From Spirochaetaceae bacterium (GTDB lineage: Bacteria > Spirochaetota > Spirochaetia > Treponematales > Rectinemataceae), in the NCBI GenBank assembly GCA_003452735.1, contig DMNL01000032.1, forward strand, positions 1 to 14,905: a DNA stretch of 14,905 nt, given 5' to 3'. Shown here in pieces: positions 1,936 through 14,905 of this stretch (position 1 is the stretch's first letter; every line of letters starts with the position of its first letter). The position numbers and the translations under genes are program-made. The notes below the pieces were generated by a model that had not been told where the DNA came from, searched no databases, and was given only the letters and a program-made list of their open reading frames with translations.

Positions 1936-2305
1936 TATAAATTGAAGCATTTTCCTTATTTATGGGGTACATTTTTCCATCAACCTTGCCCTCGAAAGTG
2001 ATCTCATCTACACATTGCCAAAAAGCTTTCTCCAGATCCACGATTATTACGCCAGGCCCGATCATCTTTCTATCGAGGATGATACTCACTCCAGAATAGT
2101 CCTTGCTTTCAATTTCCGAGGAAATATAGTCTCCAAGAATCGACTGATCCTCATCCGATGATAGCTTGATCTTTATTGAATACTTTTGATCTGAAGGTAA
2201 AACAGCCCAAATCTGATAATGATACATTGCATCGCATGAATAGAGAGACAAGATTATTACTATCGTTATTAAAGCGCCTTCTATTATTGGAATTATTTTC
2301 TTCAT
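1889..2305 (-). CDS. Hypothetical small membrane-anchored or lipoprotein-like protein
   Basis: I do not recognise this family. The 138-residue product starts MKKIIPIIEG and has one hydrophobic segment (about residues 4-22) ending in LYSC, so Cys24 could be a lipidation site under a relaxed spirochaete-type lipobox. Otherwise it is an N-terminal membrane anchor. The rest is hydrophilic with alternating beta-like stretches (YSIKIKLSS, GVSIILDRK, PGVIIVDLEKAFW, RDIIIYINLSK), suggesting a small beta-rich extracytoplasmic domain. The frame extends to a TTG at 2323, but that codon overlaps the GGAGG site (2317-2321) and falls at the expected transcription start, so the ATG at 2305 is preferred. GGAGG-to-ATG spacing is a long 11 bases. 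It stands alone on this strand between two transporter operons, and nothing links it to either. Confidence 0.65.
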   Translation of the reverse strand: MKKIIPIIEGALITIVIILSLYSCDAMYHYQIWAVLPSDQKYSIKIKLSSDEDQSILGDYISSEIESKDYSGVSIILDRKMIGPGVIIVDLEKAFWQCVDEITFEGKVDGKMYPINKENASIYKANKRDIIIYINLSK

Positions 2306-2672
2306 GACCGCATTGGCCTCCAAATATCAATTATATCAAGCGAGAGAATATATTTCCATCTTCTTCAGATCTGCCTTGCTTTAATCATGGCTCACTTTAC
2401 TACAAACTAGGATCATTTCAGCTGCCAGTTTATTTTACAAGGTTTGCAAGTAATATAAGCACAATATCAGAACTATGAAGAGCTTCATTGCAGAACTCTC
2501 TATTCTTGAGGTTGAGAAGATGAAGATCATCTTGGGCACTGTGATCAGGTTAGGATAAATTAAGACCTCAGTCTTTGGCACATTCTTTCACTTGGGTCTG
2601 TATTTCTTACATGATCGTAGATTTGCATAGCTAAGTCTGTCTAATTCTTAAATGACAAATGAGAATAAATTG
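2306..2672. other. Intergenic stretch without a supported gene
   Basis: About 370 bases without a credible coding region on either strand; the longest ATG-initiated frames I found are under 30 codons. Besides the putative - strand promoter it holds two compact inverted repeats, ATGAAG-AG-CTTCAT (2475-2488) and AAGATGA-AGA-TCATCTT (2517-2533). Neither is followed by a T run. No tRNA, riboswitch or insertion-sequence end was recognised. Confidence 0.6.
2330..2358 (-). promoter_or_regulatory. Putative sigma70 promoter of the small - strand gene
   Basis: On the - strand, TATAAT (2335-2330) is preceded after 17 bases by TGGAAA (2358-2353, four of six matches to TTGACA). Transcription would start near 2323, giving a leader of under 20 bases with GGAGG almost at its 5' end. 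The -10 box is a perfect match but the -35 is weak. Confidence 0.45.
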
Positions 2673-2701
2673 TTGACGATAGTGCAAATATATTGTATAA
2701 T
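2673..2701 (+). promoter_or_regulatory. Near-consensus sigma70 promoter of the sugar operon
   Basis: TTGACG (2673-2678), a 17-base spacer, and TATAAT (2696-2701). This is five of six and six of six consensus matches at ideal spacing. Transcription should begin near 2708, leaving a leader of about 90 bases before the ATG at 2799. It is the only strong promoter I see for the series of genes running to the right edge. Confidence 0.8.
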
Positions 2702-2707
2702 ATACAA
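2693..2707. promoter_or_regulatory. Perfect palindromic operator over the -10 box
   Basis: TTGTATA-A-TATACAA is a perfect 7-1-7 inverted repeat that contains the whole -10 hexamer (2696-2701) and ends at the expected start of transcription. A repressor bound here would block RNA polymerase. The IclR protein encoded at 6241 is the obvious candidate, but TTGTATA half-sites would equally suit a GntR/FadR-type protein encoded elsewhere. Confidence 0.6.
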
Positions 2708-2784
2708 CAAATTGATGCTGACTTAAGAATTCATTAGAACATTAAGAACAGTATCGACAGCTGTTTCTAAGCTGTATTTCCTTA

Positions 2785-2792
2785 AGAGGAGG
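2785..2792 (+). promoter_or_regulatory. Strong ribosome binding site of the sugar-binding protein gene
   Basis: AGAGGAGG ends 6 bases before the ATG at 2799. It is the strongest such site in the window, as expected for a binding protein that must be made in excess over its membrane partners. Confidence 0.8.
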
Positions 2793-2798
2793 TTTCAT

Positions 2799-3692
2799 AT
2801 GAACAGGGTATCGAAAAAACTATTGGTTTTCGCTGCTTTGCTTTTATTGCTGGGAGGAGAAGTGATTGCACAGCAAAAGCTAGTAATAGGCTTCTCTGTC
2901 TCTACTCAGGTAAATCCTTTCTATGTTGCTATGGCTGATGGAGTAAAGGAAGAGGCAGCTCGACAGGGTATTGAGGTATATGTGCTTAATGCTAACGATA
3001 AGTTGGATAAGCAGATAGCCGATGTAGAAGACTTGATTCAGAAGAAAATCCAAGTACTTCTGATTAATGCTACACATGATGGCGCAGTGGCTGTCGTAGA
3101 AAAGGCTGCCAAGGCTGGAATTCCAGTCATTACCCTTCAGCGAGAGATTCCCACTAGCATGGTGATCTCCCATATTGGGACTGACAACGTTGTGATTGGA
3201 AGAATGGGTGCACAATGGATTGTGGACAAGCTTGGAGGAAAGGGCAATGTAGTTGTGATGGAAGGAATTCCCGGAGCAGACTCTTCAGAGAGCCGAAAGA
3301 TCGGATCAGCTGAGGTCTTCAAAAAATATCAAGGAATCAAGATCGTAGCCCAGCAAAGCGGGCAATATGACAGAGCTAAGGCAATGAATGTTATGGAGAA
3401 CATCCTTCAAGCACAACCTAAGATTGATGCAGTATATTGCTTCAATGATGAGATGGCTATGGGCGTTTTGGCGGCTGTAAAGGCAGCGGGACGAACTGGG
3501 ATTCTGATTACGGGTATGGATGCAAACCAAGATGCAGTGGAGGCAGTAAAAAAAGGCGAGTTGGCAATGACAATAGCTCTACCTCCAAAGGATATTGGTC
3601 GCTTAGGCGTGGTATATGCCAAATGGCTGAAGACTGGAGAAATATCGATTCCAGTAAAGTCGGTTATGCCAGTACAGTTCATTACGCCATAA
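2799..3692 (+). CDS. ABC transporter periplasmic sugar-binding protein (RbsB-like)
   Basis: This is the substrate receptor of a ribose-type (CUT2) ABC importer, exported to the periplasm. Residues 1-24 form a signal peptide (basic MNRVSKK, a leucine-rich core, then a VIA|QQ cleavage site) with no lipobox cysteine. The mature part is a type I periplasmic-binding fold (Peripla_BP_4 group): it opens KLVIGFSVSTQVNPFYVAMADGVKEEA and continues with the alternating beta/alpha pattern (VYVLNANDKLDKQIADVEDLI, VLLINATHDGAVAVVEKA, GIPVITLQREIP, GNVVVMEGIPGADSSESR). The late FNDEMAMGVLAAVKAAG and GMDANQDAVEAVKKGELAMTIAL are typical of ribose, galactose and autoinducer-2 binders. Length is 297 residues, normal for the family. 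It is the first gene after the promoter; the ATPase gene follows after 86 bases. The sugar cannot be assigned from the sequence alone. Confidence 0.93.
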   Translation: MNRVSKKLLVFAALLLLLGGEVIAQQKLVIGFSVSTQVNPFYVAMADGVKEEAARQGIEVYVLNANDKLDKQIADVEDLIQKKIQVLLINATHDGAVAVVEKAAKAGIPVITLQREIPTSMVISHIGTDNVVIGRMGAQWIVDKLGGKGNVVVMEGIPGADSSESRKIGSAEVFKKYQGIKIVAQQSGQYDRAKAMNVMENILQAQPKIDAVYCFNDEMAMGVLAAVKAAGRTGILITGMDANQDAVEAVKKGELAMTIALPPKDIGRLGVVYAKWLKTGEISIPVKSVMPVQFITP

Positions 3693-3725
3693 GAGAATAG
3701 TTGCAACATATAGATGTGAGCAGCA

Positions 3726-3738
3726 GGCTATCTTAGCC
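3726..3738 (+). repeat. Small hairpin in the gap between binding protein and ATPase genes
   Basis: GGCTA-TCT-TAGCC forms a 5-bp stem with a 3-base loop in the 86-base gap (3693-3778), with no T run after it. A hairpin here could slow 3' decay and help keep binding-protein mRNA in excess, as known in other binding-protein operons. It is short and could be chance. Confidence 0.3.
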
Positions 3739-3778
3739 CGAATGGAAATTAACAGCAAAAAGCGCAGGTTAGTAATAA

Positions 3779-5278
3779 ATGGAGACACAGAAAAGCGAAT
3801 ATTTGCTTTCTATGCGAGGTATCGTTAAGGATTTTCCAGGGGTACGCGCATTGGACTCCGTTGATTTCAACCTGCGCCACGGAGAAATACATGGCTTAGT
3901 AGGAGAGAATGGGGCTGGCAAATCCACTCTTCTGAAGATTCTAAGTGGTGCGTTGAGGGCAGATTCTGGAGATATCTTGCTCGAAGGGAATCCAGTATCT
4001 ATCAATAATCCACGGCAAAGTCGCGAGCTGGGTATAGTCGTGATTTACCAAGAGCTTAGCTTGATACCTTACCTGGATGTAGCGAGGAATATATTTCTAG
4101 GTCATGAAGCCGAAGTTGGGTCGCATTTCGTACTTCATCGCCAAAAGATGTGTCAGGAAGCCTCTAAACTACTGAAAGAATTTTGCAGCGATCTAGATCC
4201 TCAGAGCCTCGTTGCTGAATTATCTGTAGCAGAGAAACAACTAGTCGAGATTGCTAGAGCACTATCCCAACAATCCAAGATACTTCTGATGGATGAACCC
4301 AGTGCTCCGCTTTCAGAGAGGGAAGTTGAGCAATTGTTCAATGCAATCCGTACGCTAAAGAAGCAAGGAGTAACAATTGTCTATGTGTCGCACCGATTGG
4401 AGGAGCTAGCTAAAATCACTGATCGGATTTCCATATTGCGTGATGGTAGGATGGTTGAAACTCGAGATACTCAATCAATCGATATAGAAGAGATTATTCG
4501 CTTAATGGTAGGCAGAGAAATTTCAGAACATTATCCAAAAGAGCATGCTATTCGAGGAGAGCGCCTTTTGGAGGTAAGCAATATTGCTGAGCATGGAGAG
4601 ATTCCGCTGCAAATAAATGCTGGAGAGGTTGTAGGATTGGCTGGCTTAGTCGGAGCTGGGCGAACCGAGTTGGCAAGATCTATCTTTGGGGCAAACCCTC
4701 TGCGAAGGCAGCGTTTAAGTTTTTTAGGCAAGAGTATACAACCTAATAGTCCTGCAGAGGCTATTAACTATGGTATTGGTATGGTTCCCGAAGATCGCAA
4801 GGAACAAGGTCTGATCCTTCAGATGACAATTCTGGACAACTTAACTATTCCTATGCTATCGGAACTTTTTAATGGTTTGAGTATTAATCGCCATCGTCAG
4901 AGAGAAATTGCGCAGGCTCAAGTAGACCAGCTCAAAATTCATATTACATCTCTAGAACAGCAAGCTCTGTTATTGAGTGGAGGTAATCAGCAGAAAGTTG
5001 TTTTGGGTAAGTGGCTGGCGAAGAATTGTCGCTTACTTATTCTAGATGAACCAACTCGAGGCATCGATATTGGGGCCAAGTTCGAAATATATAAGATTAT
5101 CAACGATCTAGTAAAGAAGGGTATAGGTATTCTTTTGATCTCTTCAGATCTTCAGGAGCTTATTGCTATGAGTGATCGTATCTATGTAATGAGCGATGGT
5201 TGTATTATAGCTGAGTATCCCGGAGGCTCCACAGAGCAAGAAACTATTTTAAACTGCATTTCAAGAGGAGAAAAATAA
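3779..5278 (+). CDS. ABC sugar importer ATPase with two nucleotide-binding domains (RbsA-like)
   Basis: This is the energising subunit of the CUT2-type importer, on the inner face of the membrane. Domain 1 has Walker A GENGAGKST (42-50), Q-loop Gln91, a signature region LSVAEKQ (149-155), Walker B ILLMDEP (168-174) and the switch His205 in YVSHR. Domain 2 shows the usual RbsA degeneracy: a Walker A-like LVGAGRTEL (290-298) lacking the lysine, but an intact LSGGNQQK (399-406) and LLILDEPTRGID (419-430), with SSD in place of the switch histidine. The 499 residues match the family. One small oddity is DEPSAPLSE where DEPTAALSE is usual. The ribosome site is weak (AGG about 10 bases upstream), in contrast to the binding-protein gene. 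The permease starts 4 bases after its stop. Confidence 0.95.
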   Translation: METQKSEYLLSMRGIVKDFPGVRALDSVDFNLRHGEIHGLVGENGAGKSTLLKILSGALRADSGDILLEGNPVSINNPRQSRELGIVVIYQELSLIPYLDVARNIFLGHEAEVGSHFVLHRQKMCQEASKLLKEFCSDLDPQSLVAELSVAEKQLVEIARALSQQSKILLMDEPSAPLSEREVEQLFNAIRTLKKQGVTIVYVSHRLEELAKITDRISILRDGRMVETRDTQSIDIEEIIRLMVGREISEHYPKEHAIRGERLLEVSNIAEHGEIPLQINAGEVVGLAGLVGAGRTELARSIFGANPLRRQRLSFLGKSIQPNSPAEAINYGIGMVPEDRKEQGLILQMTILDNLTIPMLSELFNGLSINRHRQREIAQAQVDQLKIHITSLEQQALLLSGGNQQKVVLGKWLAKNCRLLILDEPTRGIDIGAKFEIYKIINDLVKKGIGILLISSDLQELIAMSDRIYVMSDGCIIAEYPGGSTEQETILNCISRGEK

Positions 5279-5282
5279 AGGC

Positions 5283-6209
5283 ATGCGTAAAAGGATCCTC
5301 TGGAAGAATTATGGAAGCCTCTTTGGGCTTATTGCTATTGGCTTGGTAATGAGCTTGCTTTCTGATCGATTTTTTACCCTATCGAATTTGATTAATATTG
5401 CCAGGCAAGTCTCGATCAATGCAATTATCGCTATGGGGATGACAATGGTAATCATTACCGGTGGGATTGATCTTTCTGTAGGGAGCCTAGTAGCCCTTAC
5501 TGGATGTACTGCTATACTAGCTATGAGATTACCTGGATCAGACTTAACTGGAATCATAGTCGGTTTGGGATTAGGAGCCATTATAGGTCTGTTGAATGGA
5601 TTGTTAATAGCTTACGCTCAGATTCCACCTTTTATCGAAACACTAGCTATGTTGACAATAGCGCGTGGTACAGCCTTGGTTATAACAAATGGACAACCAA
5701 TCGTGCGCTTTGAAAGTCCATATCGCTGGCTAGGAGAAGGAATGATAGCAGGTGTGCCGGTCCCTGTGATTTTAATGTTGCTGATACTAGGTCTAACACA
5801 TTTCATATTATCCCACACTCCTTTGGGTTCTTATATATACGCTATCGGCGGAAATGAAGAGGCAGCTCGTCTTTCTGGAGTAAAAGTAAATCGAATTAAG
5901 AGCATAGTGTATCTGATAAGTGGTCTTTACACCGGAATTTCAGGAATGATTCTAGCTGGCAGACTCGGATCTGCTCAGCCTAATACAGGAGAAGGGTTTG
6001 AGCTTGATGCAATAGCTGCCGTAGTATTAGGTGGGACAAGTCTTATGGGTGGAAGGGGATCTGTTTGGGGAACATTGATTGGCGTGTTTATAATTGGGAT
6101 TCTTAACAATGGCTTTAATCTGCTGAATGTGAGCCCCTTTTACCAGTTAATAGCTAAGGGCGTAGTTATTATCTTTGCAGTACTTTTAGATCAAATACTA
6201 AAGCGATAA
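5283..6209 (+). CDS. ABC sugar importer permease (RbsC-like)
   Basis: This is the membrane channel subunit of the same importer, probably acting as a homodimer. The 308 residues are mostly hydrophobic (about eight to ten helices). The BPD_transp_2 hallmark IITGGIDLSVGSLVAL is at residues 58-73, and the conserved C-terminal motif ELDAIAAVVLGGTSLMGGRG with SVWGTLIG precedes the last helices. AGAGGAG in the end of the ATPase gene lies 12 bases before this ATG, so translation is likely coupled. Base composition is A/T rich: two 60-base rows counted by hand (5341, 5581) have 20 and 21 G+C, lower than sampled rows of the enzyme genes downstream. Confidence 0.94.
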   Translation: MRKRILWKNYGSLFGLIAIGLVMSLLSDRFFTLSNLINIARQVSINAIIAMGMTMVIITGGIDLSVGSLVALTGCTAILAMRLPGSDLTGIIVGLGLGAIIGLLNGLLIAYAQIPPFIETLAMLTIARGTALVITNGQPIVRFESPYRWLGEGMIAGVPVPVILMLLILGLTHFILSHTPLGSYIYAIGGNEEAARLSGVKVNRIKSIVYLISGLYTGISGMILAGRLGSAQPNTGEGFELDAIAAVVLGGTSLMGGRGSVWGTLIGVFIIGILNNGFNLLNVSPFYQLIAKGVVIIFAVLLDQILKR

Positions 6210-6240
6210 CTGCTTATGAAAAAGGAAGTTGAATAAATCT

Positions 6241-7029
6241 ATGGCTGAAATACAATCGTTGGCTCGTGGCTTAAAGATCCTAGAAATTATGGCTGAAAGC
6301 GAATTTGGAATCGGTGTTACAGAATTAGCTGAGCAACTGCAGGTGGACAAATCCACTGCTTCAAGGCTTGTTCAAACCCTAGTAAAAGACGGTTTTGTTC
6401 AAAGATCAGAGGACGGTAGGACATATACACTAGGACCAACACTTGTAAACTTAAGCCGCAGCGTCATTATCCGCATGCCTTTGAGAGAAGCTGCGAAGCC
6501 ATTCCTGAGAGAATTGGTGGAGCTGTCAGGAGAATGTGCGCACTTGGCTATCTATGCCCAAGGGAAAGCGCTCTATATAGATCAGATGGAATCGCCCTCT
6601 ACGCTAAGGGTAAATGTAGAGGTCGGACACATGGCTCCGCTGCATTGTACTGCTTTGGGGAAAGCACTATTGGCTTTTGGAGATTATCCAATTCCATATG
6701 AATTAGAGGGCTATACTTCGAAGACAATCAAAGATCCCAAAATCTTGCAGAGAGAGCTCCAGCAGGTAAAAGAGCAGGGATATGCGATAGATGATGAGGA
6801 ATTCGATCCAGATGTGCGCTGTATTGCTTCTCCGGTTTTTGATTATAGAGATAAACTGGTGGGGGCTATTGGCATTTCTGGTCCTTCTACCCGTTTGAGT
6901 CTTCCTCGAATCAAGGTATTAGCTCCACATATAAAGAATATCGCTCAGCAGCTTTCGGATAAATTGGGATTCAACATAGATAAAAGGACTGCTAAATGGA
7001 GTACAAAGAAATCGAAAAAGCGAGAATAG
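6241..7029 (+). CDS. IclR-family transcriptional regulator
   Basis: This 262-residue DNA-binding regulator has the two standard IclR parts. The winged helix-turn-helix covers residues 5-66 (LARGLKILEIMAESEFGIGV, TELAEQLQVDKSTASRLVQTLVKDGFVQ, then wing GRTYTLGP). The effector domain fills the rest (GHMAPLHCTALGKALLAF, EEFDPDVRCIASPVFDYRDKLVGAIGISGP). IclR proteins sense small metabolites and often control catabolic operons, including their own. A TTG at 6229 in the same frame is possible, but it directly abuts the AAGGAAG site, so the ATG at 6241 (spacing about 12) is preferred. It lies 31 bases after the permease gene and overlaps the next gene by 34. It most likely acts on the palindrome at 2693; whether as repressor or activator is not shown. 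The C-terminus is lysine-rich (KKSKKRE). Confidence 0.93.
   Translation: MAEIQSLARGLKILEIMAESEFGIGVTELAEQLQVDKSTASRLVQTLVKDGFVQRSEDGRTYTLGPTLVNLSRSVIIRMPLREAAKPFLRELVELSGECAHLAIYAQGKALYIDQMESPSTLRVNVEVGHMAPLHCTALGKALLAFGDYPIPYELEGYTSKTIKDPKILQRELQQVKEQGYAIDDEEFDPDVRCIASPVFDYRDKLVGAIGISGPSTRLSLPRIKVLAPHIKNIAQQLSDKLGFNIDKRTAKWSTKKSKKRE
6985..6988 (+). promoter_or_regulatory. Ribosome binding site that supports the overlapping start of the IolD-like gene
   Basis: AGGA (within AAAAGGA) ends 7 bases before the ATG at 6996, inside the end of iclR. The next in-frame ATG is at about residue 48 of the product, past the conserved N-terminal region, so the 34-base overlap start is favoured. Confidence 0.6.
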
Positions 7030-8975
7030 AGAGAGCTAACATCATTGCAGAATGTGGTGGGCTCGATGTCGCATTGGCAGCGAATAGAATTCCGCTCCAT
7101 ATAGATGCAACGCTCTCAGAACTGCTGATTCTAGGCATGCTTCTGCAGAATGTAAAAACATACTTCACCGTGTTTGGTCATGGATCGACGGAGATTGGCG
7201 AAGTTTTGCGCATCTTTGAGAAGGCTGGGCTGGTAAGAGTATTGGGTTTACGGAATGAAATCGAAGCTTCCCATGCAGCTACAGCTCTCAATTGGATTAC
7301 ACATGAAAAGGCTGCTGTAGTCACTTCCATTGGGCCTGGTGCCTTTCAGGCTTTAGCCGCTTCGCTTGTGCCCGCTTCCGATGGCATAGGTGTATGGTAC
7401 CTGTTTGGGGATGAGACCACCGAGGATGAAGGCTACAATATGCAGCAGATTCCTAAGAATCAGGAGTTTCTATTTCCTCAGGTTCTGCAGGCGATGGGCT
7501 CTGCCTATAGCCTCCAAGATCCTTGGGCGCTTTCGACGGCGCTCCGAAGAGGGCATGCGAGAGTGGATCATCCCTTTCGCCCTGGCCCTTTCTATGTGTC
7601 CATGCCTATGAATGTGCAATCACGTATGCTAAAGGGTTTCAATCTGCGAGAGCTGCAGTGCGGAGAAATATCTTGTATAGGAGCTGCTGTTGGAGATTAT
7701 GAAAAAGCAGTCGCTTGGATAAAAGATTCAAGATCGGCTGTGATAAAGATCGGCGCGGGTGCAAAAGGAGCAACAGAAGAAATTCTGCAACTTGCGGAAT
7801 TAATAGACGGAGTATGTGTTTACACTCCAATAGCAGGTGGCATAGTGCCTTACGAGCATCCACGCTGTATGGGGGTAGGCGGATCGAAAGGGAGTATCTG
7901 TGGCAATTATGCCATGGAAATGGCCGATCTTCTTATCGCTATTGGTACCAGAGCAGTCTGTCAGTCGGATAGCTCGCGCACTGGATATCCAAATGTCAGA
8001 AAAGTGATAAATATCAATGCGGATCTGGATGATGCTCTTCATTATCAGGATTCGCTCGCGTTGATGGGAGATGCAAAACTCACGCTGAAAGAACTGATCG
8101 GCGCATTGAAAAGGGCATCGGAAGAAGGCCTGAAAAAAGCGCTGAGAGAGGAGCCTGAAGAAGCGCTGAAAGAGGCATTGAAAGAAAAGTCTGAAGAAGT
8201 ATCTAGAGAATCTTATGGACAGGCTCATACCGAATCGTCGGATTGGCTGTTTGCTTGCGCAGCTAAAAAGTCCGAATGGGAAGCCTTCAAGCAAGAGCGC
8301 TTTGATAATCCAACGCTCGAGGATTCTTTCTGGAGAAGAAGAGTATTGACCCAGCCGGCCGCAATCAAAATTGCATTGGATTGGTCAGCGGACAAAGAAG
8401 TCATAAATATTTTCGATGCGGGCGATGTGCAGGCGAATGGTTTTCAGATCGCCTCGGACGAATGGTCGGGTAAGACTATTACGGATTCCGGAGCAAGTTA
8501 TATGGGATTTGCTGTTTCAGCGATCCTTGCAAGCGCGGCGAAGCCAGATTGTCCCTATATTCTGGCTTTTAGCGGCGATGGCTCCTTTACGATGAATCCT
8601 CAGATCTTGATCGATGGAGCAGAGCATGGCGCAAGGGGCTGCATTCTTTTATTCGACAATAATCGCATGGCTGCTATTTCTGGTTTGCAGATGGCTCAAT
8701 ATGGAAACGAATTTGCAACTTGGCACGAAAAGCCTATCGATTACCTAGGATGGGCAAAATCCGTGCCCGGAGTAATGGCCATAAGCGGAGGTCATTCACC
8801 AGAAGAGCTGAGAAGAGCTTTGGATAAAGCTTTCGATTACAAAGGATTATCTCTCATTCATATTCCAGTCTATTACAGTACGGATCCCCTTGGCTCTATG
8901 GGAGTCTATGGGCGATGGAATGTTGGCAATTGGGTCGAAGAGACCCAGAAATTGCGCCACAAGATAGGATTGTAG
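6996..8975 (+). CDS. ThDP-dependent enzyme of the acetolactate synthase superfamily, IolD-like
   Basis: This is a 659-residue ThDP enzyme. The N-terminal pyrimidine-binding domain has GHG (61-63) and GLRNEIEASHAA with the cofactor-activating Glu88. A middle Rossmann-like domain carries ADLLIAIGTRAV and VININADLDDALH. The C-terminal diphosphate-binding domain has GDGS (527-530) and Asn555-Asn556 (the GDG-X25-NN metal site). The nearest family I recognise is IolD, the trihydroxycyclohexanedione acylhydrolase of inositol breakdown. Shared points are the FGHG start, the ADLxIxIGTR and DAKxTLxxL segments, LLFDN, and the W-x-VG-x-x-V near the C-terminus. Similarity by eye looks partial, so the substrate may differ, and no other inositol genes are nearby except a Gfo/Idh enzyme. 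An unusual charged repeat insertion occupies residues 375-406. It overlaps iclR by 34 bases, and the transketolase genes follow 18 bases on. A decarboxylase or carboligase role is the alternative. Confidence 0.85.
   Translation: MEYKEIEKARIERANIIAECGGLDVALAANRIPLHIDATLSELLILGMLLQNVKTYFTVFGHGSTEIGEVLRIFEKAGLVRVLGLRNEIEASHAATALNWITHEKAAVVTSIGPGAFQALAASLVPASDGIGVWYLFGDETTEDEGYNMQQIPKNQEFLFPQVLQAMGSAYSLQDPWALSTALRRGHARVDHPFRPGPFYVSMPMNVQSRMLKGFNLRELQCGEISCIGAAVGDYEKAVAWIKDSRSAVIKIGAGAKGATEEILQLAELIDGVCVYTPIAGGIVPYEHPRCMGVGGSKGSICGNYAMEMADLLIAIGTRAVCQSDSSRTGYPNVRKVININADLDDALHYQDSLALMGDAKLTLKELIGALKRASEEGLKKALREEPEEALKEALKEKSEEVSRESYGQAHTESSDWLFACAAKKSEWEAFKQERFDNPTLEDSFWRRRVLTQPAAIKIALDWSADKEVINIFDAGDVQANGFQIASDEWSGKTITDSGASYMGFAVSAILASAAKPDCPYILAFSGDGSFTMNPQILIDGAEHGARGCILLFDNNRMAAISGLQMAQYGNEFATWHEKPIDYLGWAKSVPGVMAISGGHSPEELRRALDKAFDYKGLSLIHIPVYYSTDPLGSMGVYGRWNVGNWVEETQKLRHKIGL
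8118..8213 (+). repeat. 36-bp in-frame tandem repeat in the IolD-like gene
   Basis: Two full 36-base units and a partial third encode SEEGLKKALREE (residues 375-386), PEEALKEALKEK (387-398) and SEEVSRES (399-406). The units share the pattern x-E-E-(G/A)-L-K-(K/E)-A-L-(R/K)-E-x. The stretch lies in the linker between the middle and C-terminal ThDP domains and should form a charged surface helix. Confidence 0.8.
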
Positions 8976-8993
8976 ATAGGATAGGATTGCGAA

Positions 8994-9830
8994 ATGCAAG
9001 GCTTAGCTAAAGAAGAGAGCGAAGAATTGAACGAGATTGCCCGTGAGTTGCGATGCACAAGTCTACGAATGATACATAGAAGGCAGGCTGGGCATCCGGG
9101 GGGATCACTATCAGCCGCAGAAATCATGACTGTTTTATATTTCAAGGTTATGAGAATCGATCCTGAGAATCCAAACTGGGATGAGAGAGATCGGTTTTTG
9201 CTGAGCAAGGGACATGCATCGGCAATGTTCTATGCCACTCTTGCAAAGCGTGGTTTTTTCCCTGAAGAAGAATTACAGAAGTGGGGAGAACTGGATTGTC
9301 ATCTTCAAGGGCATCCTGATCGCCTCAAGACGACCGGTGTCGATATGAATAGCGGAATTTTGGGGCACGGCGTTCCGATTGGAGTAGGGCTATGCCTTGC
9401 AGCAAGACATAAGAGAAAAGACTATCGGGTTTTTACCCTCCTAGGAGATGGTGAATGCCAGGCTGGGCTCGTCTGGGAAGGAGCAAATGCTGCCGCGAAA
9501 TATGCTCTCACCAATTTAGTCGCCATTATCGACCACAATGGAGTACAGCTGGACGGATTTGTCGAAGAAGTTATGCCAATCGAACCGCTCGCAGAAAAAT
9601 GGAGATCGTTTGGATGGGATGTCCTCGAGGTGGATGGGCATGATGTCGATCAACTATATCAGGCTTTTCTCCAATGCATTGAAGCCCAGAAGAAACCAAC
9701 GGTGATCATTGCAAGAACGATAAAAGGCAAAGGCGTGAGCTTTATGGAGAACAAGGCATATTGGCATGGCGTTGCTCCATCGACAGAGGAGCTTGCGCGC
9801 GCTCTTCATGAGCTTGGTGAGGAGTTTTGA
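8994..9830 (+). CDS. Transketolase, N-terminal subunit (split transketolase)
   Basis: This is the diphosphate-binding half of a two-gene transketolase, which moves a two-carbon ketol unit between sugars using ThDP. Length is 278 residues, as usual for free N-terminal subunits. Conserved sites are GHPGGSLS (33-40, with a catalytic-region histidine), SKGHAS (71-76), and the ThDP/metal motif GDGE (151-154) through IIDHN (Asn182), then GHDVDQLYQA and TIKGKGVSFMEN. It needs the product of the next gene for a complete active site. AGGA 7 bases before the ATG serves as ribosome site. Split transketolases include housekeeping enzymes, but also specialised ones such as apulose-4-phosphate transketolase (AptAB) and, as I recall, the sulfofructose transketolase SqwGH. 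The operon setting points to a specialised role, and the sequence does not settle the substrate. Confidence 0.93.
   Translation: MQGLAKEESEELNEIARELRCTSLRMIHRRQAGHPGGSLSAAEIMTVLYFKVMRIDPENPNWDERDRFLLSKGHASAMFYATLAKRGFFPEEELQKWGELDCHLQGHPDRLKTTGVDMNSGILGHGVPIGVGLCLAARHKRKDYRVFTLLGDGECQAGLVWEGANAAAKYALTNLVAIIDHNGVQLDGFVEEVMPIEPLAEKWRSFGWDVLEVDGHDVDQLYQAFLQCIEAQKKPTVIIARTIKGKGVSFMENKAYWHGVAPSTEELARALHELGEEF
9819..9824 (+). promoter_or_regulatory. Ribosome binding site that fixes the start of the transketolase C subunit
   Basis: GAGGAG in the last codons of the N subunit gene ends 7 bases before the ATG at 9832. The frame is open back to 9766, but an ATG there has no such site and would add residues that merely shadow the upstream gene. 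Confidence 0.7.
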
Positions 9831-9831
9831 A

Positions 9832-10779
9832 ATGGCAGCTATTTCTATGCGAGAAGCCTTTGGCAAAGCGCTCTTGCAATATGGAGAAGAAAACCAAAAC
9901 ATTGTAGTGCTCGATGCCGATACAAGTTCTTCTACTCTTACGAAGATATTCGCCCAGCGTTTTCCTGAACGCTTTTACAATATTGGAATTGCCGAACCTT
10001 GCATGGTGGATGTGGCGGTAGGTTTGGCTCTTGGAGGGCTGATTCCCTTTGCAAATGCGTTCTCCGCCTTGCTTTCGCTGCGAGCCATCGAAGCGATACG
10101 CAGCAATATTTGCTATGCTCGCACCAATGTAAAGCTTGTAGCACATTATGCAGGATTATCTGATTACAAAGATGGTCCTACACATCACTCCATAAGCGAT
10201 ATCGCCATTTTTAGATCTTTGCCTGGAATGACCTTGATAGTGCCTTCGGATGCGACCCAGACAGCAGCCTTTGTGCCACTGATGGCAAAAAAAGATGGAC
10301 CGATAACAATGCGCATAAGCCGCGGTGCATCGATTCCTGTTCATAAAGAAGGCGAAGCACTGGAAATAGGCAAGGCAATCGCGAGGCGCAAAGGAAGAGA
10401 TGTGGGTCTAATCGCCTGTGGGAGCATGGTGGGACGCTGCATGGCCGCAGCCGAAATTCTTGCCAAGGAAGGAATTGAGGCTGCTGTTCTCGAGATTCAT
10501 ACCATAAAGCCCATTGATGAGGATTCGATCTATAGAGTTGCGGCTGAGACCGGCGCTATCGTGACTGCCGAAGAGCATAGCATTTTAGGGGGTCTCGGCG
10601 GCGCGGTTGCCGAAGTCCTGGCTGAAAAGTGCCCTACGCCGATGGTGAGAATAGGGATATCGGATACCTTCGCTCGTACGGCACTAGATACAGATAGCCT
10701 AATGGATGCCTATGGGCTTTCCATTGATCGAATAGCAAGCGTGGCTATTGGAGTTTTGAAGAAGAAGGAAAAGCGATGA
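9832..10779 (+). CDS. Transketolase, C-terminal subunit (split transketolase)
   Basis: This is the pyrimidine-binding half of the split transketolase, 315 residues with the family's usual length. It begins with the standard SMREAFGKALLQYGEENQNIVVLDAD. The cofactor-activating glutamate is Glu55 in YNIGIAEPCMV, and a substrate-side histidine lies in KDGPTHHS (113-120). The middle IVPSDATQTAAFVPLM and late GCACGS-like stretch (LIACGSMVGRCMAAAEILAKEGI) and HTIKPIDEDSI match the transketolase C-terminal domain. Its start lies one base after the N-subunit stop, and its own stop overlaps the isomerase gene as ATGA (10776-10779), so the three proteins are probably made together. The pairing of N and C subunit genes argues for a functional heterotetramer. 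Members of this layout can also be DXP-synthase-like, but the motifs favour transketolase. Confidence 0.93.
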   Translation: MAAISMREAFGKALLQYGEENQNIVVLDADTSSSTLTKIFAQRFPERFYNIGIAEPCMVDVAVGLALGGLIPFANAFSALLSLRAIEAIRSNICYARTNVKLVAHYAGLSDYKDGPTHHSISDIAIFRSLPGMTLIVPSDATQTAAFVPLMAKKDGPITMRISRGASIPVHKEGEALEIGKAIARRKGRDVGLIACGSMVGRCMAAAEILAKEGIEAAVLEIHTIKPIDEDSIYRVAAETGAIVTAEEHSILGGLGGAVAEVLAEKCPTPMVRIGISDTFARTALDTDSLMDAYGLSIDRIASVAIGVLKKKEKR

Positions 10780-11405
10780 GAATTGCCATTCTGAATGAGA
10801 CAAGCGCAGCAGATCGAAATGTGGATATTTTGAGAGCCCTAGAAGGCCGTGGTCATATACTCATAAATGCTGGCATGAAACAGAATGGAGCAAAGCCTGA
10901 GCTGACCTATATTCATACTGGCCTATTGGGAGCGCTCTTTTTGAACCTCGGTGCGGCGGATTTTGTGGTCGGCGGCTGTGGTACAGGGCAGGGTTTTCTC
11001 AATTCTGTCATGCAATACCCGGGCGTGTGCTGTGGGCACATCGTTTCGCCATTGGATGCATGGCTGTTTGCTCAGATAAATGGTGGGAACTGCATTTCTC
11101 TCATGCTTAACCAGGGCTATGGCTGGGCTTCCGATGTCAATCTAAAAATGATATTTGACCAATTATTCGCTGTCGAATCAGGCATAGGATATCCCCCACA
11201 CAGGCGAGAATCCCAGCAAAGTTCTCGCATAATACTTAAGAATATTTCGCAGACTACGCATTTCCCCATGCATGAGATTTTGCAGAGACTACCAGAATCG
11301 ATTGTGCAAGAAGCATTGACCTATCCCGGCATTTTCGATGCGCTTGGATTTGATGACCTGCCGCAATCCAATTTGAAAGAGGAGATAAAAAAATGGAGGC
11401 AATGA
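10776..11405 (+). CDS. RpiB/LacA/LacB-type sugar(-phosphate) isomerase, long variant
   Basis: This is a probable aldose-ketose isomerase related to ribose-5-phosphate isomerase B. The core motif GCGTGQG (67-73) keeps the catalytic-type Cys68, and is followed by PGVCCGHIVSPLDAWLFAQINGGNCISL, which aligns with the RpiB stretch PG-x-RAAL-CHD...N-D-x-NVL. At 209 residues it is longer than RpiB (about 150), with an extra C-terminal part after residue 135. The N-terminal SDHAG motif of classical RpiB is replaced by LNETSAADRN, so phosphate or sugar binding should differ. I recall a similar long RpiB-like group (starting like MKIALINENSQ) in sugar-acid clusters of anaerobes. It overlaps the transketolase gene by four bases, and the symporter gene begins 2 bases after its stop. 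A function on the aldose made or used by the transketolase is an inference. Confidence 0.82.
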   Translation: MRIAILNETSAADRNVDILRALEGRGHILINAGMKQNGAKPELTYIHTGLLGALFLNLGAADFVVGGCGTGQGFLNSVMQYPGVCCGHIVSPLDAWLFAQINGGNCISLMLNQGYGWASDVNLKMIFDQLFAVESGIGYPPHRRESQQSSRIILKNISQTTHFPMHEILQRLPESIVQEALTYPGIFDALGFDDLPQSNLKEEIKKWRQ

Positions 11406-11406
11406 A

Positions 11407-12807
11407 ATGGAAAGAGGAAAACCAAAAAAAGAGGAATCTCTGAAAAACAATGAGGAAGTGAAACTGCCGCTTAAGACAAAGATGTTCTATGGTATTGGGG
11501 ACATTGGCAATGCCATTATCAATTCTGCTATTCAGTTTTATCTATTGAAATTCTATACCGATATAGCCTTGATTTTACCCGTTCTTGCAGGTAATGCGCT
11601 ATTGATAGGAAAAATCTGGGATGCAATAAACGATCCCCTATTTGGATGGTTGACAGATAAGACGGATTCTAAGTTGGGGCGACGACGGGTTTTTATGATT
11701 TGGGGAGCTATCCCATTAGGGATCAGCATTATGCTGCTTTGGTTCATACCAAAAGGTTTATCTACAACTACGACATTCATCTGGATTGCTCTTACGTTTA
11801 TCCTTTTCGATACCTTCTGGACATTGACTAATGTTCCCTATTACGCGCTTACCTCGGAATTGACAGACGATTACGATGAGCGCAGTTCTCTTACCACTAC
11901 TCGCATGGTAATGGCCGTGCCAGCCTATCTCGTCGGCGTCGCTCTCACTCCGCTTCTAGCTGGACTCTTCTCCGATGGGAGAAAAGGTTGGGCTTATGTA
12001 GGTATTATCTATGGAGTCATCTGTGCGGCTGTCTTGCTCATCTCGGCTGCTGGAATAAAAGAACGCAAAAAGGTTATGCAAACCAAGGCCAAGACCAATG
12101 TCTGGCAGAGTGTGAAGATAGCCTTGTCCAATAAGCCCTTTCAGCGTTTGTGTATAGCATATTTCGTTATCAACCTTGCGTTCGCGATGGTGAAGACTTT
12201 GATGGCTTACTATCTCGAATACCAGCTGCTTATGAAAAATGAAATATCGCTGGTAATGGGGCTGATGCTTATCTGCGTCACGTTGTCCTTGCCCTTTTGG
12301 AAAAAGCTCAGCGAAAAGCTTGATAAGGGCAAGAGCTATGCATTGGGTACCGGAATTGGCGCGATAGCAATCAGCATATCGTTTTTCTTGAAGCCAGAGC
12401 AGGGGAAGCTGGTATACATTCTCTCGGCTCTGGCTGGCATAGGTTTTGGCTCGCAGTGGATTTTCCCATGGTCGATGGTAGCGGATGTGGCAGATTATGA
12501 CCGAGTTCAATCCGGCGAATTTAGAAGTGGAATGTATTATGGTATTTGGGGATTGGCTACCAAGATATCCGAAGCTCTTGCCATTGCTGGGATTGGCTGG
12601 ATGCTGACCGGTTTTGGCTATGTGCCGAATGTAGTTCAAAGCTCTAAATCGCTATTGGGAATCCGTTTGTTCTTTGGGCCTATTCCGGGGATCATCATTA
12701 TCGTCACCTTGCCCTTATTGATCTGGTATCCTATCGATCGCAAAAAACATTCGGAGATTCGTGAAAAATTGGCAGCAATGGAATCTCAGTCAGGAGAAAA
12801 TTTATGA
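11407..12807 (+). CDS. GPH-family (MelB-type) sugar:cation symporter
   Basis: This is an inner-membrane secondary transporter of the glycoside-pentoside-hexuronide:cation symporter family within the major facilitator fold. The 466 residues carry about twelve membrane segments. The diagnostic loop is clear at residues 69-95: KIWDAINDPLFGWLTDK then TDSKLGRRRVFM. The second half has FPWSMVADVADYDRVQSGEFRSGMYYG, the matching GPH motif. The N-terminus is unusually charged (ERGKPKKEESLKNNEEVKL) before the first helix. GGAGG lies 7 bases before the ATG, in the end of the isomerase gene, and the stop overlaps the next gene as ATGA (12804-12807). Substrates of the family range from melibiose and xylosides to uronides. 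With a complete ABC importer in the same operon, it may handle a different form of the substrate, such as a glycoside. Confidence 0.94.
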   Translation: MERGKPKKEESLKNNEEVKLPLKTKMFYGIGDIGNAIINSAIQFYLLKFYTDIALILPVLAGNALLIGKIWDAINDPLFGWLTDKTDSKLGRRRVFMIWGAIPLGISIMLLWFIPKGLSTTTTFIWIALTFILFDTFWTLTNVPYYALTSELTDDYDERSSLTTTRMVMAVPAYLVGVALTPLLAGLFSDGRKGWAYVGIIYGVICAAVLLISAAGIKERKKVMQTKAKTNVWQSVKIALSNKPFQRLCIAYFVINLAFAMVKTLMAYYLEYQLLMKNEISLVMGLMLICVTLSLPFWKKLSEKLDKGKSYALGTGIGAIAISISFFLKPEQGKLVYILSALAGIGFGSQWIFPWSMVADVADYDRVQSGEFRSGMYYGIWGLATKISEALAIAGIGWMLTGFGYVPNVVQSSKSLLGIRLFFGPIPGIIIIVTLPLLIWYPIDRKKHSEIREKLAAMESQSGENL

Positions 12808-13874
12808 AGAAAATTGGAGTGGCTTTGGTCGGTTGTGGTCGTATCTCGGATCTTCATGTGCTTGGTTATCGGGATCGCTCGGATGCGCAGATTGTCGCTT
12901 TGTGCGACGCCAAGGAGGCCAGAGCAAAACAAAAAGCGCGGGAGTGGGGTGTTGCAAAGATATACAAGGATTATCCCGAATTGTTGAAGGATCCAGAGAT
13001 AGACTTAGTGGAACTTCTTGTCCCTCATCATCTTCATTGTCCAATGACCGTGCAGGCAGCTAAAGCAGGCAAGCATATTTCAGTTCAAAAGCCAATGTGC
13101 CTTTCCGCGGCAGAAGCAGATGAAATGATCGCTGCAGCCAAGAAAGCCGGCGTGGTTTTGCGCGTATATGAAAATTTTGTTCACTATGAGCCAGCCGTAA
13201 AAGCCAAGGAGATGCTAGATGCGGGCGAAATAGGCAAGCCCGTGATGCTGCGTATGCATATTAATACAGGTTACTCTCCGCAAGGTTGGAAGATTCCTCT
13301 GGATGCATGGAGGTGGCGTTTCGATGAAAAGCAGAGTGGCGGAGGAGAATTGGTCTTTGATCACGGCTATCATCTGTTTTCTCTCGCTTATCATTTGATG
13401 GGTCAAGCCGAGCGCGTCATGGCTTGGATAGACAAGACACCGGTCGCTCCGGGAGTATTCGTCGATGCTCCAGCCACAATCATGTTTCAGTTCAAGAAAA
13501 AGCGCAGTTATGGCGTGTTCGATATTTCTCACACACCAAAGATTCTAATGAATTCGAAGTACTATTCCGATGACGACCGCGTTGAGATCGTAGGAGAGAA
13601 AGGAATAATCTTTATCAACCGATATACAACTAAGACTATCGATCTGCCCGAATTGCTTCTCTTTAAGGATGGCAAGACTATACCTATTCCTATAGAAAAG
13701 CCAGAATGGGAGGATAGTTTCATTGCTGCAACGCAACACCTTATCGATGTCTTGCAGCATGGAGGGGCTCCGCTTTTGGATGGAAGGGCTGGGAAAGAGG
13801 TGCTGCAATTCACCTTGGCAGCCCAGCAATCCGCTCGCGAGGGCCGAGAGGTCAAGCCGGATGATGTCGCTTAG
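12804..13874 (+). CDS. Gfo/Idh/MocA-family NAD(P)-dependent oxidoreductase
   Basis: This cytoplasmic oxidoreductase belongs to the glucose-fructose oxidoreductase / inositol dehydrogenase family. The N-terminal Rossmann fold has the nucleotide loop VGCGRIS (9-15). The catalytic lysine is in VQKPM (Lys96), where the common EKP motif has Gln95 in place of Glu. The C-terminal alpha/beta domain carries FDHGYH (185-190), supplying the usual Asp and His of the active site. Length is 356 residues, normal. It is joined to the symporter gene by an ATGA overlap, with AGGAG 8 bases upstream of the ATG. Substrates in the family are sugars, cyclitols, amino sugars and their acids. Next to an IolD-like enzyme, an inositol or keto-inositol dehydrogenase role is possible, but sugar oxidation or reduction elsewhere in the pathway is equally so. 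Confidence 0.92.
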   Translation: MKKIGVALVGCGRISDLHVLGYRDRSDAQIVALCDAKEARAKQKAREWGVAKIYKDYPELLKDPEIDLVELLVPHHLHCPMTVQAAKAGKHISVQKPMCLSAAEADEMIAAAKKAGVVLRVYENFVHYEPAVKAKEMLDAGEIGKPVMLRMHINTGYSPQGWKIPLDAWRWRFDEKQSGGGELVFDHGYHLFSLAYHLMGQAERVMAWIDKTPVAPGVFVDAPATIMFQFKKKRSYGVFDISHTPKILMNSKYYSDDDRVEIVGEKGIIFINRYTTKTIDLPELLLFKDGKTIPIPIEKPEWEDSFIAATQHLIDVLQHGGAPLLDGRAGKEVLQFTLAAQQSAREGREVKPDDVA

Positions 13875-13900
13875 ATCTCGCCTTGAACCAAGATGATGCG

Positions 13901-14905
13901 ATGAAACGTATATTCGTTTTGGATGTCAGCGACCTGTCTTTCTCAAGGCGCGTTTCAGCAGCGGCCTTGCAAGGTCTCGTAAACCGAAAAGGATCAACCC
14001 TCTATCTCGATTATGGCTTCTATGATGACCCAAGTGCTCGTCGAACGAATGAAGAGTTCATAGATGATAAAAACTGGTTTGGCAAATATAGGACATTCTT
14101 AGGCAATCAAGATGAACATAACATCGAGTTTTATCAAAAGGAGCATGGATTTGATATTGAAGAGCTTTCAAGTCTAAGCGAAGCCTTAAGAAAATTCAAA
14201 GATGATTATGGTGGCCTTGTAATTTGGGATGAAAGTCTATTGGATACGGTGAACGCAGCCGTAATGCTAGCAGGGCTGGAGAACTTGATTCCAGTAACCA
14301 TGAATCTCATAGAAGAATTGGCGCTCCAGGATTTGCCTATTCGCCATGATCTTCGGAACAAATGGACAGATAGACTTCAGATCTACACCTGGGCAATGGA
14401 TAATCTGTTCGAGCAATGTAAGCCTGGAGTTGTCGCTTGTATCGAGCCAGGATGGCAGAGACCAGAATTCTTGGATTACCTAGTAGAGGAGCGCATATTT
14501 ACTTATAGCCTATCGAGCCGTCATGAGGGGCTGGGGAATAAGCTATTGATGCTTTTAGCATTCGGACCGCCGGCTTTGCGCGAGGTTATCTTTGCCCTCA
14601 GACTAGATGCTCCAATTCGAAAATTCGCATTGCATTGGATGGCAAGAAGATCTCAAGAAGTAAAGATTTCCAATACAATTCAGAGAAAAGTCCGCTCGGA
14701 AACATATCCCACCATATTTGGTTGGCACACAAAACGCGATGATGAACTCTCGTTCATGTCTCAGCTTTCGGCCAATGGCTTACGGCTTGTGCCTGCTCAT
14801 CTTGCTGGGAATTTTTCCTTCCATAGCAAGTTAGAGCCGTTGAAAGAAAAACCATTCAAAGCGCGGTCATTTAAGGGAAAATCATTCAAAGCAGAATCGC
14901 TTGGA
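13901..14905 (+). CDS. GxGYxYP-family protein, N-terminal part (cut by window edge)
   Basis: The frame from the ATG at 13901 stays open to the right edge (335 residues seen). The start MKRIFVLDVSDLSFSRRVSAAALQGLVNRKGSTLYLDY matches the opening of GxGYxYP proteins, a family proposed as glycosidase-like and often found with glycan-use genes. FGWHTKRDDELSFMSQLSANGLRLVPAHLAGNFSFHS (about 273-309) matches the later family segment before the core. The naming GxGYxYP motif would lie beyond the window. No signal peptide is present, so this copy should stay in the cytoplasm. Other in-frame ATGs just upstream (13893, 13896) run into stops after two to three codons. No clear ribosome site precedes 13901; it lies 26 bases after the Gfo/Idh stop. 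A run of pentapeptide repeats starts at residue 317. Confidence 0.8.
   Translation, partial: MKRIFVLDVSDLSFSRRVSAAALQGLVNRKGSTLYLDYGFYDDPSARRTNEEFIDDKNWFGKYRTFLGNQDEHNIEFYQKEHGFDIEELSSLSEALRKFKDDYGGLVIWDESLLDTVNAAVMLAGLENLIPVTMNLIEELALQDLPIRHDLRNKWTDRLQIYTWAMDNLFEQCKPGVVACIEPGWQRPEFLDYLVEERIFTYSLSSRHEGLGNKLLMLLAFGPPALREVIFALRLDAPIRKFALHWMARRSQEVKISNTIQRKVRSETYPTIFGWHTKRDDELSFMSQLSANGLRLVPAHLAGNFSFHSKLEPLKEKPFKARSFKGKSFKAESLG
14849..14905 (+). repeat. 15-bp in-frame tandem repeat at the right edge
   Basis: Units of 15 bases encode KPFKA, RSFKG, KSFKA and a diverged ESLG(x) cut by the window end, following a conserved NFSFHS segment of the GxGYxYP protein. The pattern is (K/R/E)-(P/S)-(F/L)-K-(A/G). 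The total copy number is unknown because the array runs off the sequence. Confidence 0.65.

Follow-up and report, generated by a model that had tools for sequence, protein, structure and literature searches.

A Putative Catabolic Operon Combining an IolD-like Enzyme with a Split Transketolase in a Spirochaetaceae Bacterium, and the Conserved Module It Represents

Introduction

The subject of this work is an operon of Spirochaetaceae bacterium (GenBank assembly GCA_003452735.1) that lies on contig DMNL01000032.1 (C134 in our numbering), positions 1-14905; "the window" refers to this whole stretch of 14,905 nucleotides. The assembly amounts to 1.31 Mb in 176 contigs and is 79% complete. Behind a sugar importer and a regulator, the operon encodes a thiamine diphosphate (ThDP)-dependent enzyme resembling IolD, a split transketolase (TK), a long RpiB-like isomerase, and a Gfo/Idh/MocA oxidoreductase. 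These genes represent a conserved catabolic module, which is probably undescribed; by analogy, it may best be compared to the lower half of the sulfo-TK pathway, the sulfonate being exchanged for a carboxylate. It is quite possible, if somewhat short of an even chance, that the operon serves the catabolism of an imported sugar-like or ring-polyol substrate, from which the isomerase and the TK leave malonate semialdehyde. In other genomes, the RpiB-like isomerase and the TK are replaced by an IlvD-type dehydratase, mostly together with a dehydrogenase of the succinate semialdehyde dehydrogenase (SSADH) type. This second exit was not visible from the window, and the first-pass annotation, which proposed a candidate undescribed catabolic route from the letters of the window, is partly supported in its interpretation as a whole. 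No paper joining transketolase, inositol, IolD, and RpiB was found in a literature search that most subscription papers lay outside; one of the papers listed does mention both 2-deoxy-5-keto-D-gluconate and transketolase.

Conservation of the Gene Set and Its Two Exits

The set of genes was followed through 89 loci, namely the best 80 of 381 confirmed IolD-like loci in a species-genome collection, 8 loci from 7 relatives (8 of the 58 genomes searched matched, the window's own among them), and the window. To score the neighbouring genes, family representatives were used as tblastn queries; contig ends may hide some of the genes. A TK is present in 28 of the 89 loci, and all 28 also carry a long RpiB; the neighbourhood search proposed in the first-pass annotation, in which the genes might have turned out not to be conserved together, thus found them associated. 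An IlvD-type dehydratase is present in 35 loci, none of which has a TK (0/35) or a long RpiB (0/35). RpiB occurs without TK in 3 loci, and neither exit is found in 23. The dehydrogenases follow the same division. Genes of the methylmalonate semialdehyde dehydrogenase (MMSDH) type adjoin 12/28 TK loci vs 0/35 IlvD loci, and SSADH-type genes adjoin 0/28 TK loci vs 26/35 IlvD loci. These values supersede earlier counts based on open reading frames (ORFs), which gave 27 TK loci with RpiB in 24 of them because greedy ORF picking overlooked genes where the locus is GC-rich. From those older counts, and with relatedness ignored, the absence of overlap between TK and IlvD has a hypergeometric P of 4e-8.

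The arrangement of the genes is also conserved. The TK lies on the same strand as the IolD-like gene and within 3 kb of it in 26 of the 27 ORF-called TK loci, the exception being L095 (9 kb, other strand); by ORF clustering, IclR is found in 19/27 of these loci, GPH in 14/27, and Gfo in 22/27, the latter also in 11/35 IlvD loci. The set recurs with the gene order of the window in several Chloroflexota loci, e.g., L019 and L020, and with other orders elsewhere, which indicates that the gene set is more than a product of chance. TK-type loci span records of Chloroflexota, Spirochaetota, Planctomycetota, and Actinomycetota, mostly from uncultured organisms. The IlvD module is found in two named strains, Rhodovulum marinum DSM 18063 (L093) and Nonomuraea thailandensis DSM 46694 (L054).

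In a rapid tree built from 88 IolD-like proteins without bootstrap and labelled from the ORF-based counts (by which L101 was scored as "none"), the TK and IlvD labels require at least six changes. Two IlvD loci of Chloroflexota, L028 and L074, are nested among TK loci in a group of eight (97*). The Gfo proteins of the IlvD loci L033 and L074 are 63% and 69% identical to that of the window, the GPH protein of L033 is 59% identical, and L028 also carries Gfo; much the same early genes therefore appear to feed two late modules. Two kinds of IlvD have been recruited, those of L053 and L098 exceeding the PRK06131 cut-off and that of L033 the TIGR00110 cut-off, and the recruited TKs are likewise of two forms, split and fused. 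This variety points to the reaction and not to a single protein lineage.

Two further groups of IolD-like loci were observed. In Alphaproteobacteria (L082, L085, L086, L090-L093, and L098), the IolD-like gene stands with TctABC-like, Zn-alcohol-dehydrogenase-like, and xanthine-dehydrogenase-like genes; the families were scanned in L098 only. SSADH and IlvD accompany it in most of these loci, and the substrate is perhaps a related acid. In L041, L060, L066, L070-L072, L078, and L079, which are mostly from Latescibacterota and Gemmatimonadota, the gene adjoining the IolD-like one is GDSL-like (Pfam was run on L041 only), and there is no TK or IlvD exit.

The IolD-like ThDP-Dependent Enzyme

The three domains of a ThDP enzyme were found in this protein by the family scan. 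Its nearest organism-named homologue, P0003 from a metagenome-assembled genome of Spirochaetia, is 91% identical, and in some sources the gene is currently annotated as an inositol enzyme. Membership in IolD itself, the trihydroxycyclohexane-1,2-dione hydrolase, was rejected. The window protein scores 137 bits on the IolD model TIGR04377, the cut-off of which is 715, and the four IolDs that exceed it, found among 149 genomes of the phylum, reach 849-975 bits. Many other proteins of the same phylum reach about 180-270 bits on this model; those inspected, L114-L122, have acetolactate synthase (ALS)-type motifs by eye. Since such proteins outscore that of the window, an IolD best hit is weak evidence in this case.

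The name "IolD-like" given in the first-pass annotation is justified with respect to the pocket. Letters of the IolD type are present (FGHG, TSIGPGA, S-x-M-G, and DN...I..LQ), and conserved positions that match only IolD number 24, among them H62-G63 (in FGHG), S111-I112, S501, D554, I561, and L564, vs 19 that match only ALS. This comparison covers 80 of 88 IolD-like rows, the other 8 having been dropped by length together with L113 (an IolD fragment) and L120 (ALS-like), and the 8 ALS-like proteins were assigned by an FGYPGG-type motif, not by a profile scan. The profile match of the family is likewise slightly better to IolD (298) than to ALS (259). The mean identity of the 80 rows is 22.7% to the 4 IolDs and 21.1% to the 8 ALS-like proteins, so that the protein belongs to a deep family of its own, in which the pocket letters are of the IolD type, and not to IolD. 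The predicted structure (mean predicted local distance difference test score, 88.8) is closest to ALS, carboligases, decarboxylases, and cyclohexane-1,2-dione hydrolase (CDH); the model matches the whole ALS/decarboxylase/CDH superfamily and does not discriminate within it.

The Isomerase and the Transketolase

The RpiB-like protein exceeds the cut-off of PRK09273/NF006753 (Table 1), which places it in the DhuI family. Its four PDB matches include gbs1892 (4u8e, 150 bits), the DhuI of S. agalactiae, and the GCGTG motif is present. The earlier description as a long RpiB-like protein thus stands, with the refinement that enzymes of the DhuI family act on a carboxylate sugar and not on a sugar phosphate. 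In uronate metabolism, DhuI is a nonhomologous stand-in for KduI of the KduI/IolB family (PMC12838403).

The TK chains contain the domains PF00456 (180 bits, profile positions 4-276 of 334), PF02779 (128 bits), and PF02780 (100 bits), and their best PDB matches are the split TK of Carboxydothermus (6yak/6yaj). For comparison, three sulfo-TK-like sets (L133, L139, and L140) were used, which were recognised by gene content and not by characterised SqwGH. Each combines a split TK with a short RpiB (157-161 aa); L139 and L140 add SauS-like and SucCD-like genes, L133 encodes a protein of the sulfoquinovose (SQ)-isomerase family (NF048012, 338 vs 700 bits, below the cut-off), and a relative of that protein is found in L140. 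In the trees of both chains, the TKs of these three sets form a 100/100 clade that excludes the window. The expectation of the first-pass annotation that the genes fall within no characterised clade is therefore upheld with respect to IolD and to these sulfo-TK-like enzymes.

The sulfo-TK-like cluster of L133 (259-11564; G070:C42), with a regulator, the SQ-isomerase-family protein, a split TK, a short RpiB, GH31, and TauE/SafE, directly adjoins the IolD-like/TK operon L043. Those of L139 and L140 belong to the relatives G022 and G017, with a similar set, L141, in G011, and contain SauS-like and SucC/SucD-like genes. At L138 (4770-8719; G022:C33), a fused TK (52% identical to that of L103) adjoins a SauS-like dehydrogenase, and no IolD-like gene lies within the fetched 16 kb.

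Semialdehyde Dehydrogenase Partners

The type of dehydrogenase beside the TK provides information on the product. All seven TK-adjacent MMSDHs tested (L019, L027, L036, L040, L055, L101, and L102) exceed the TIGR01722 cut-off. When positions were assigned by aligning L055 with the B. subtilis enzyme 1t90, both substrate-carboxylate Arg residues were found to be kept in 8 of 10 aligned MMSDHs (in L101 and L102, the first is replaced by Lys), and the Arg beside the Cys was kept in all ten; the six SSADH types aligned have neither Arg (6/6). In the B. subtilis enzyme, these two residues bind the carboxylate of the substrate.

At the genome level, MMSDH exceeds the cut-off in 9 of 19 TK genomes, fragments are found in 2 (G059 and G060), and 8 have none. 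Its use as a genome-wide mark of TK genomes was considered and dropped (9/19 plus 2 fragments vs 7/10 IlvD genomes), and only its adjacency is specific. A strong SauS-like CoA-acylating gene is absent from the 11 MMSDH-bearing TK genomes (0/11) vs present in 5/8 of those without (G061, G066, G067, G070, and G074; Fisher p 0.005, relatedness not corrected). "Strong" means more than 380 bits, a line drawn after the scores were seen, and the gene of G067 is partial. Among the seven relatives, a strong SauS-like gene is found in G017, G022, G028, and G056, a partial one in G029 (352 bits), and only MMSDH in G010.

The SauS-like gene of locus L043 (G070) lies 3' of RpiB on the same strand, about 170 nt away, and its product scores 575.7 bits vs a cut-off of 600. 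This protein is 73% identical to one encoded in an inositol operon of G066 and 49-54% identical to three of the sulfo-TK-like clusters, and in a SauS tree, from which L129 was left out, the three are split from the other eight proteins at 100/100. In the G066 operon, IolD (923 bits), IolB (331), and IolG (496) exceed their cut-offs, and IolE (230) remains under 290. Malonate semialdehyde is an established product of inositol breakdown and is expected in that operon, and it is therefore the likeliest product of the TK.

The same inositol operon (L134:7115-16210; G066:C44) comprises IolG, IolE-like, IolD, IolB, the SauS-like CoA-acylating dehydrogenase, and TauE/SafE, with a transaldolase-like gene (122 vs 367 bits) between IolD and IolB. 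It perhaps represents an inositol route free of kinase and aldolase, in which the transaldolase would cut 2-deoxy-5-keto-gluconate.

Proposed Pathway and Its Alternatives

In the proposed route, the Gfo/Idh enzyme would oxidise one hydroxyl of the substrate to a ketone, and the IolD-like enzyme would cut the C-C bond beside the ketone, as IolD does with a cyclic dione, which would give an open-chain aldehyde whose far end bears a carboxylate. The gene neighbourhoods suggest that the DhuI-type isomerase then converts this aldose-acid into the ketose and that the split TK moves C1-C2 to a phosphosugar acceptor of the pentose phosphate pool, leaving a short semialdehyde. The TK had earlier been suggested as the carbon-splitting step; it would split carbon, but probably as the second cut, after the ThDP enzyme. 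To judge from the partner genes, the semialdehyde would be malonate semialdehyde, converted to acyl-CoA by an MMSDH-type or a SauS-like dehydrogenase, which belong to two unrelated families. The action of a TK on an unphosphorylated keto-acid has precedents in a TktA variant that cuts 5-keto-gluconate to tartaric semialdehyde (PMC12016104) and in the sulfo-TKs (PMC12890257, PMC11659671, and PMC9594981).

One candidate for an intermediate shared by the two exits is a C5 aldehydo-acid, OHC-CHOH-CHOH-CH2-COO-. A TK that leaves OHC-CH2-COO- would have to use HOCH2-CO-CHOH-CH2-COO-, the ketose of this acid. Along the IlvD exit, SSADH would oxidise the C5 aldehyde to 2,3-dihydroxyglutarate, which IlvD would convert to 2-oxoglutarate. 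The C5 acid is preferred mainly because both exits would then reach central metabolism without a further enzyme, and it could arise by IolD-type opening of a C5 ring. It is put forward only tentatively that the module is new and widespread and does for carboxylates what the sulfo-TK pathway does for sulfonates. A new ThDP family would yield a deoxy aldehydo-acid from the Gfo/Idh-oxidised substrate, and this acid would leave by either of two interchangeable exits, through isomerase and TK to malonate semialdehyde and acyl-CoA or through dehydrogenase and IlvD to 2-oxoglutarate.

Nevertheless, a number of findings weigh against this route. No abundant substrate offers an evident way to the C5 intermediate, because a C6 cyclitol opened in the manner of IolD yields an acid with six carbons. 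By ORF clustering, Gfo is absent from 5/27 TK loci and 24/35 IlvD loci; the margins of IolD over ALS (24 vs 19 positions and 298 vs 259) are small; and support is weak for 29/85 inner branches of the IolD-like tree. MMSDH exceeds the cut-off somewhere in 7/10 IlvD genomes (G077, G079, and G083-G087), a strong SauS-like gene is also found in 3/9 IlvD genomes (G082, G084, and G087), and the relative G011 has both a strong SauS-like gene and an MMSDH at its locus. Only L043 has a SauS-like gene inside the TK locus, which makes the complementarity of SauS and MMSDH indirect; the genes of G066, G074, and G061 have aminotransferase neighbours or belong to an inositol operon, and those of G011, G017, and G022, at one place each, lie in sulfo-TK-like clusters. 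The base of the eight-protein SauS group is not resolved in the tree, and four of the eight adjoin aminotransferases. The malonate semialdehyde step is weakened by this and by the MMSDH count in IlvD genomes. By the thresholds used, three of the 19 TK genomes (G064, G072, and G076) have neither MMSDH nor a SauS-like gene. In the window genome, 79% complete, the best match to the MMSDH model reaches 318 vs 448.5 bits and is about 33% identical to the neighbour proteins, and no SauS-like match was found.

An inositol-type C6 route is fairly unlikely. The IolD-like enzyme would give 5-deoxyglucuronate, a DhuI-type isomerase in place of IolB would give 2-deoxy-5-keto-gluconate, and the TK would yield malate semialdehyde without kinase and aldolase. 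The IolD-type pocket letters agree with this scheme, as do the substitution of DhuI for KduI, a member of the KduI/IolB family (PMC12838403), and the TK variant acting on 5-keto-gluconate (PMC12016104). At L040, the IolD-like, TK, RpiB, and MMSDH genes are accompanied by a Gfo resembling IolG and a TIM barrel resembling IolE, but both matches are weak (IolG 151 vs 355 bits; IolE 47 vs 290 bits). Moreover, IolE, IolB, and IolC were not found among the window genes scanned, a C4 malate semialdehyde does not fit MMSDH or SauS partners of the inositol-operon type, and the IlvD exit would require an extra aldolase.

A role of the ThDP protein as a conventional carboligase or decarboxylase of 2-keto acids, with TK and RpiB only feeding a common product, e.g., glycolaldehyde, into the pentose phosphate pool, is quite unlikely. 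The fold and profile are generic to the superfamily, and the best structural matches include ALS, carboligases, decarboxylases, and CDH alike. The pocket letters (FGHG, TSIGPGA, and the S before MG) are nevertheless of the IolD type, and the either-or occurrence of TK and IlvD with matching types of dehydrogenase suggests one shared acid intermediate.

A sulfonate version, in which a sulfosugar is processed by RpiB and TK as SqwI and SqwGH to give sulfoacetaldehyde, is also quite unlikely. A split TK and a PF02502 isomerase operate in the sulfo-TK pathway, one variant of which also employs a CoA-acylating dehydrogenase (PMC12890257, PMC9594981, and PMC11659671). L043 carries TauE/SafE besides its SauS-like gene, and TauE/SafE adjoins the importer in L105 and L106 (Pfam run on L105 only), with SucC- and SucD-like genes also in L105. 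These observations raised the sulfonate version, and the separate sulfo-TK-like cluster beside L043, which has its own TK and RpiB and to which the TauE gene on the L043 side may belong, lowered it again together with the SauS tree, in which the L043 protein is nearer to the inositol-operon one than to the sulfo-TK-like ones. The TKs of the window type fall outside the sulfo-TK-like clade, the RpiBs of which are short; both carboxylate Arg residues are kept in most MMSDHs; and FucI-family proteins (PF02952, the family of SqvD) are unmatched in 10/27 TK genomes, by a model that can miss such proteins (that of G017 is below the cut-off).

Comparison with Known Systems

The sulfo-TK pathway of sulfoquinovose (SqwGH, SqwI, and SqwD) is reported from anaerobes including Spirochaetes (PMC12890257, PMC9594981, and PMC11659671), and it shares with the proposed route a split TK and a PF02502 isomerase acting on unphosphorylated acidic sugars, followed in a variant by a CoA-acylating semialdehyde dehydrogenase. 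Unlike in that pathway, the window has TKs outside the sulfo-TK-like clade and a long RpiB of the DhuI type, the lead-in consists of Gfo/Idh and IolD-like ThDP enzymes, and the partner dehydrogenases of the module resemble malonate semialdehyde enzymes. SqvD (FucI family) was not found among the window genes scanned; the sole PF02952 match in the window genome lies on contig C145, in an open frame of 615 aa.

Myo-inositol catabolism (IolG-IolE-IolD-IolB-IolC-IolJ-IolA) has in common with the module the Gfo/Idh enzyme, the pocket letters, an aldose-ketose isomerase, and, in 12/28 TK loci, a gene of the MMSDH (IolA) type. It differs in that the IolD-like protein is far under the IolD cut-off and in that TK replaces kinase and aldolase; IolE, IolB, IolC, and IolJ were not found among the ten genes from the substrate-binding protein (SBP) to Gfo or in the last (GxGYxYP) gene. 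The DhuI/KduI pathway of unsaturated uronates has a counterpart in the window RpiB, which carries the GCGTG motif and clearly belongs to the DhuI family, but the window has TK and a ThDP enzyme instead, and no short-chain dehydrogenase/reductase of the DhuD/KduD kind was found among its ten scanned genes. The apiose pathway, with AptAB, likewise has a split transketolase in a sugar operon; unlike in that pathway, no kinase was found among the window genes scanned.

Organization of the Window

The features of the window are collected in Table 1. The five enzyme genes named in the first-pass annotation and their packing behind the importer and the IclR regulator are borne out by the ORFs and the scans; its gene list omitted two genes that flank Gfo, the GPH symporter on the RpiB side and the GxGYxYP gene on the other. 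Its statement that kinase and aldolase are lacking agrees with the family scans of the ten genes from SBP to Gfo, in which neither was found; genes before position 2799 were not scanned. No Rfam match was obtained in the window at gathering scores.

Table 1. Genes recognised in the window and the basis of each assignment.
Feature	Position	Strand	Basis or remark
TRAP-type transporter-like large and small subunits	58-1880		recognised by eye
RbsB-like SBP, CUT2 sugar ABC importer	2799..3692	+	family scan and alignment
ATPase, CUT2 ABC importer	3779..5278	+	family scan
Permease, CUT2 ABC importer	5283..6209	+	family scan
IclR-family regulator	6229..7029	+	family scan
IolD-like ThDP-dependent enzyme of a separate deep family; putative C-C cleavage	6996..8975	+	scans, alignment, model
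TktN, N-terminal (ThDP-binding) chain of split TK	8994..9830	+	
TktC, C-terminal chain of split TK	9832..10779	+	
Long RpiB-like isomerase, DhuI (PRK09273) family	10776..11405	+	NF006753, 192.6 bits, cut-off 137
GPH-family sugar:cation symporter	11407..12807	+	TIGR00792, 290.7 bits, cut-off 231
Gfo/Idh/MocA oxidoreductase	12804..13874	+	family scan
GxGYxYP-family protein, truncated by the window end	13883..14905	+	start TTG 13883 or ATG 13901

From IclR to Gfo, all genes are arranged head to tail with a largest intergenic gap of 18 nt (between the IolD-like stop and TktN) and overlaps of 34 nt (IclR and IolD-like), 4 nt, and 4 nt, the last two being ATGA overlaps at TktC/RpiB-like and GPH/Gfo; 1 nt separates RpiB from GPH. 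TktC is taken to start at ATG 9832, 1 nt past TktN, as the mechanical ORF start at 9766 was judged too early.

The nearest PDB relatives of the SBP are ribose-binding proteins (RBPs), and its pocket is altered, with Q and L at the positions matching D89 and Q235 of RBP. Among the five SBPs aligned, those of L105 and L106 carry the same Q and L, and those of L081, L099, and L100 do not. These letters suggest that the SBPs of the window, L105, and L106 may share one ligand that differs from ribose. CUT2 genes adjoin the IolD-like gene in 5/8 fetched relative loci (L099, L100, L104, L105, and L106).

Two observations concern the flanks. In L019 and L020, too, a GxGYxYP gene lies 3' of Gfo, and there it is followed by a second GPH symporter. 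In the window, a reverse-strand ORF of 144 aa lies upstream of the importer, in the region of the TRAP-like genes (58-2323).

Conclusions

If the proposed route is true, an undescribed carbohydrate or cyclitol route would be added to those known, and the ThDP protein would represent a new family with a testable reaction. The transfer of C2 units by TK on unphosphorylated sugar acids, known from sulfoquinovose, would extend to carboxylates, and the second C-C cut, for which textbook routes rely on kinase plus aldolase, would fall to a TK.

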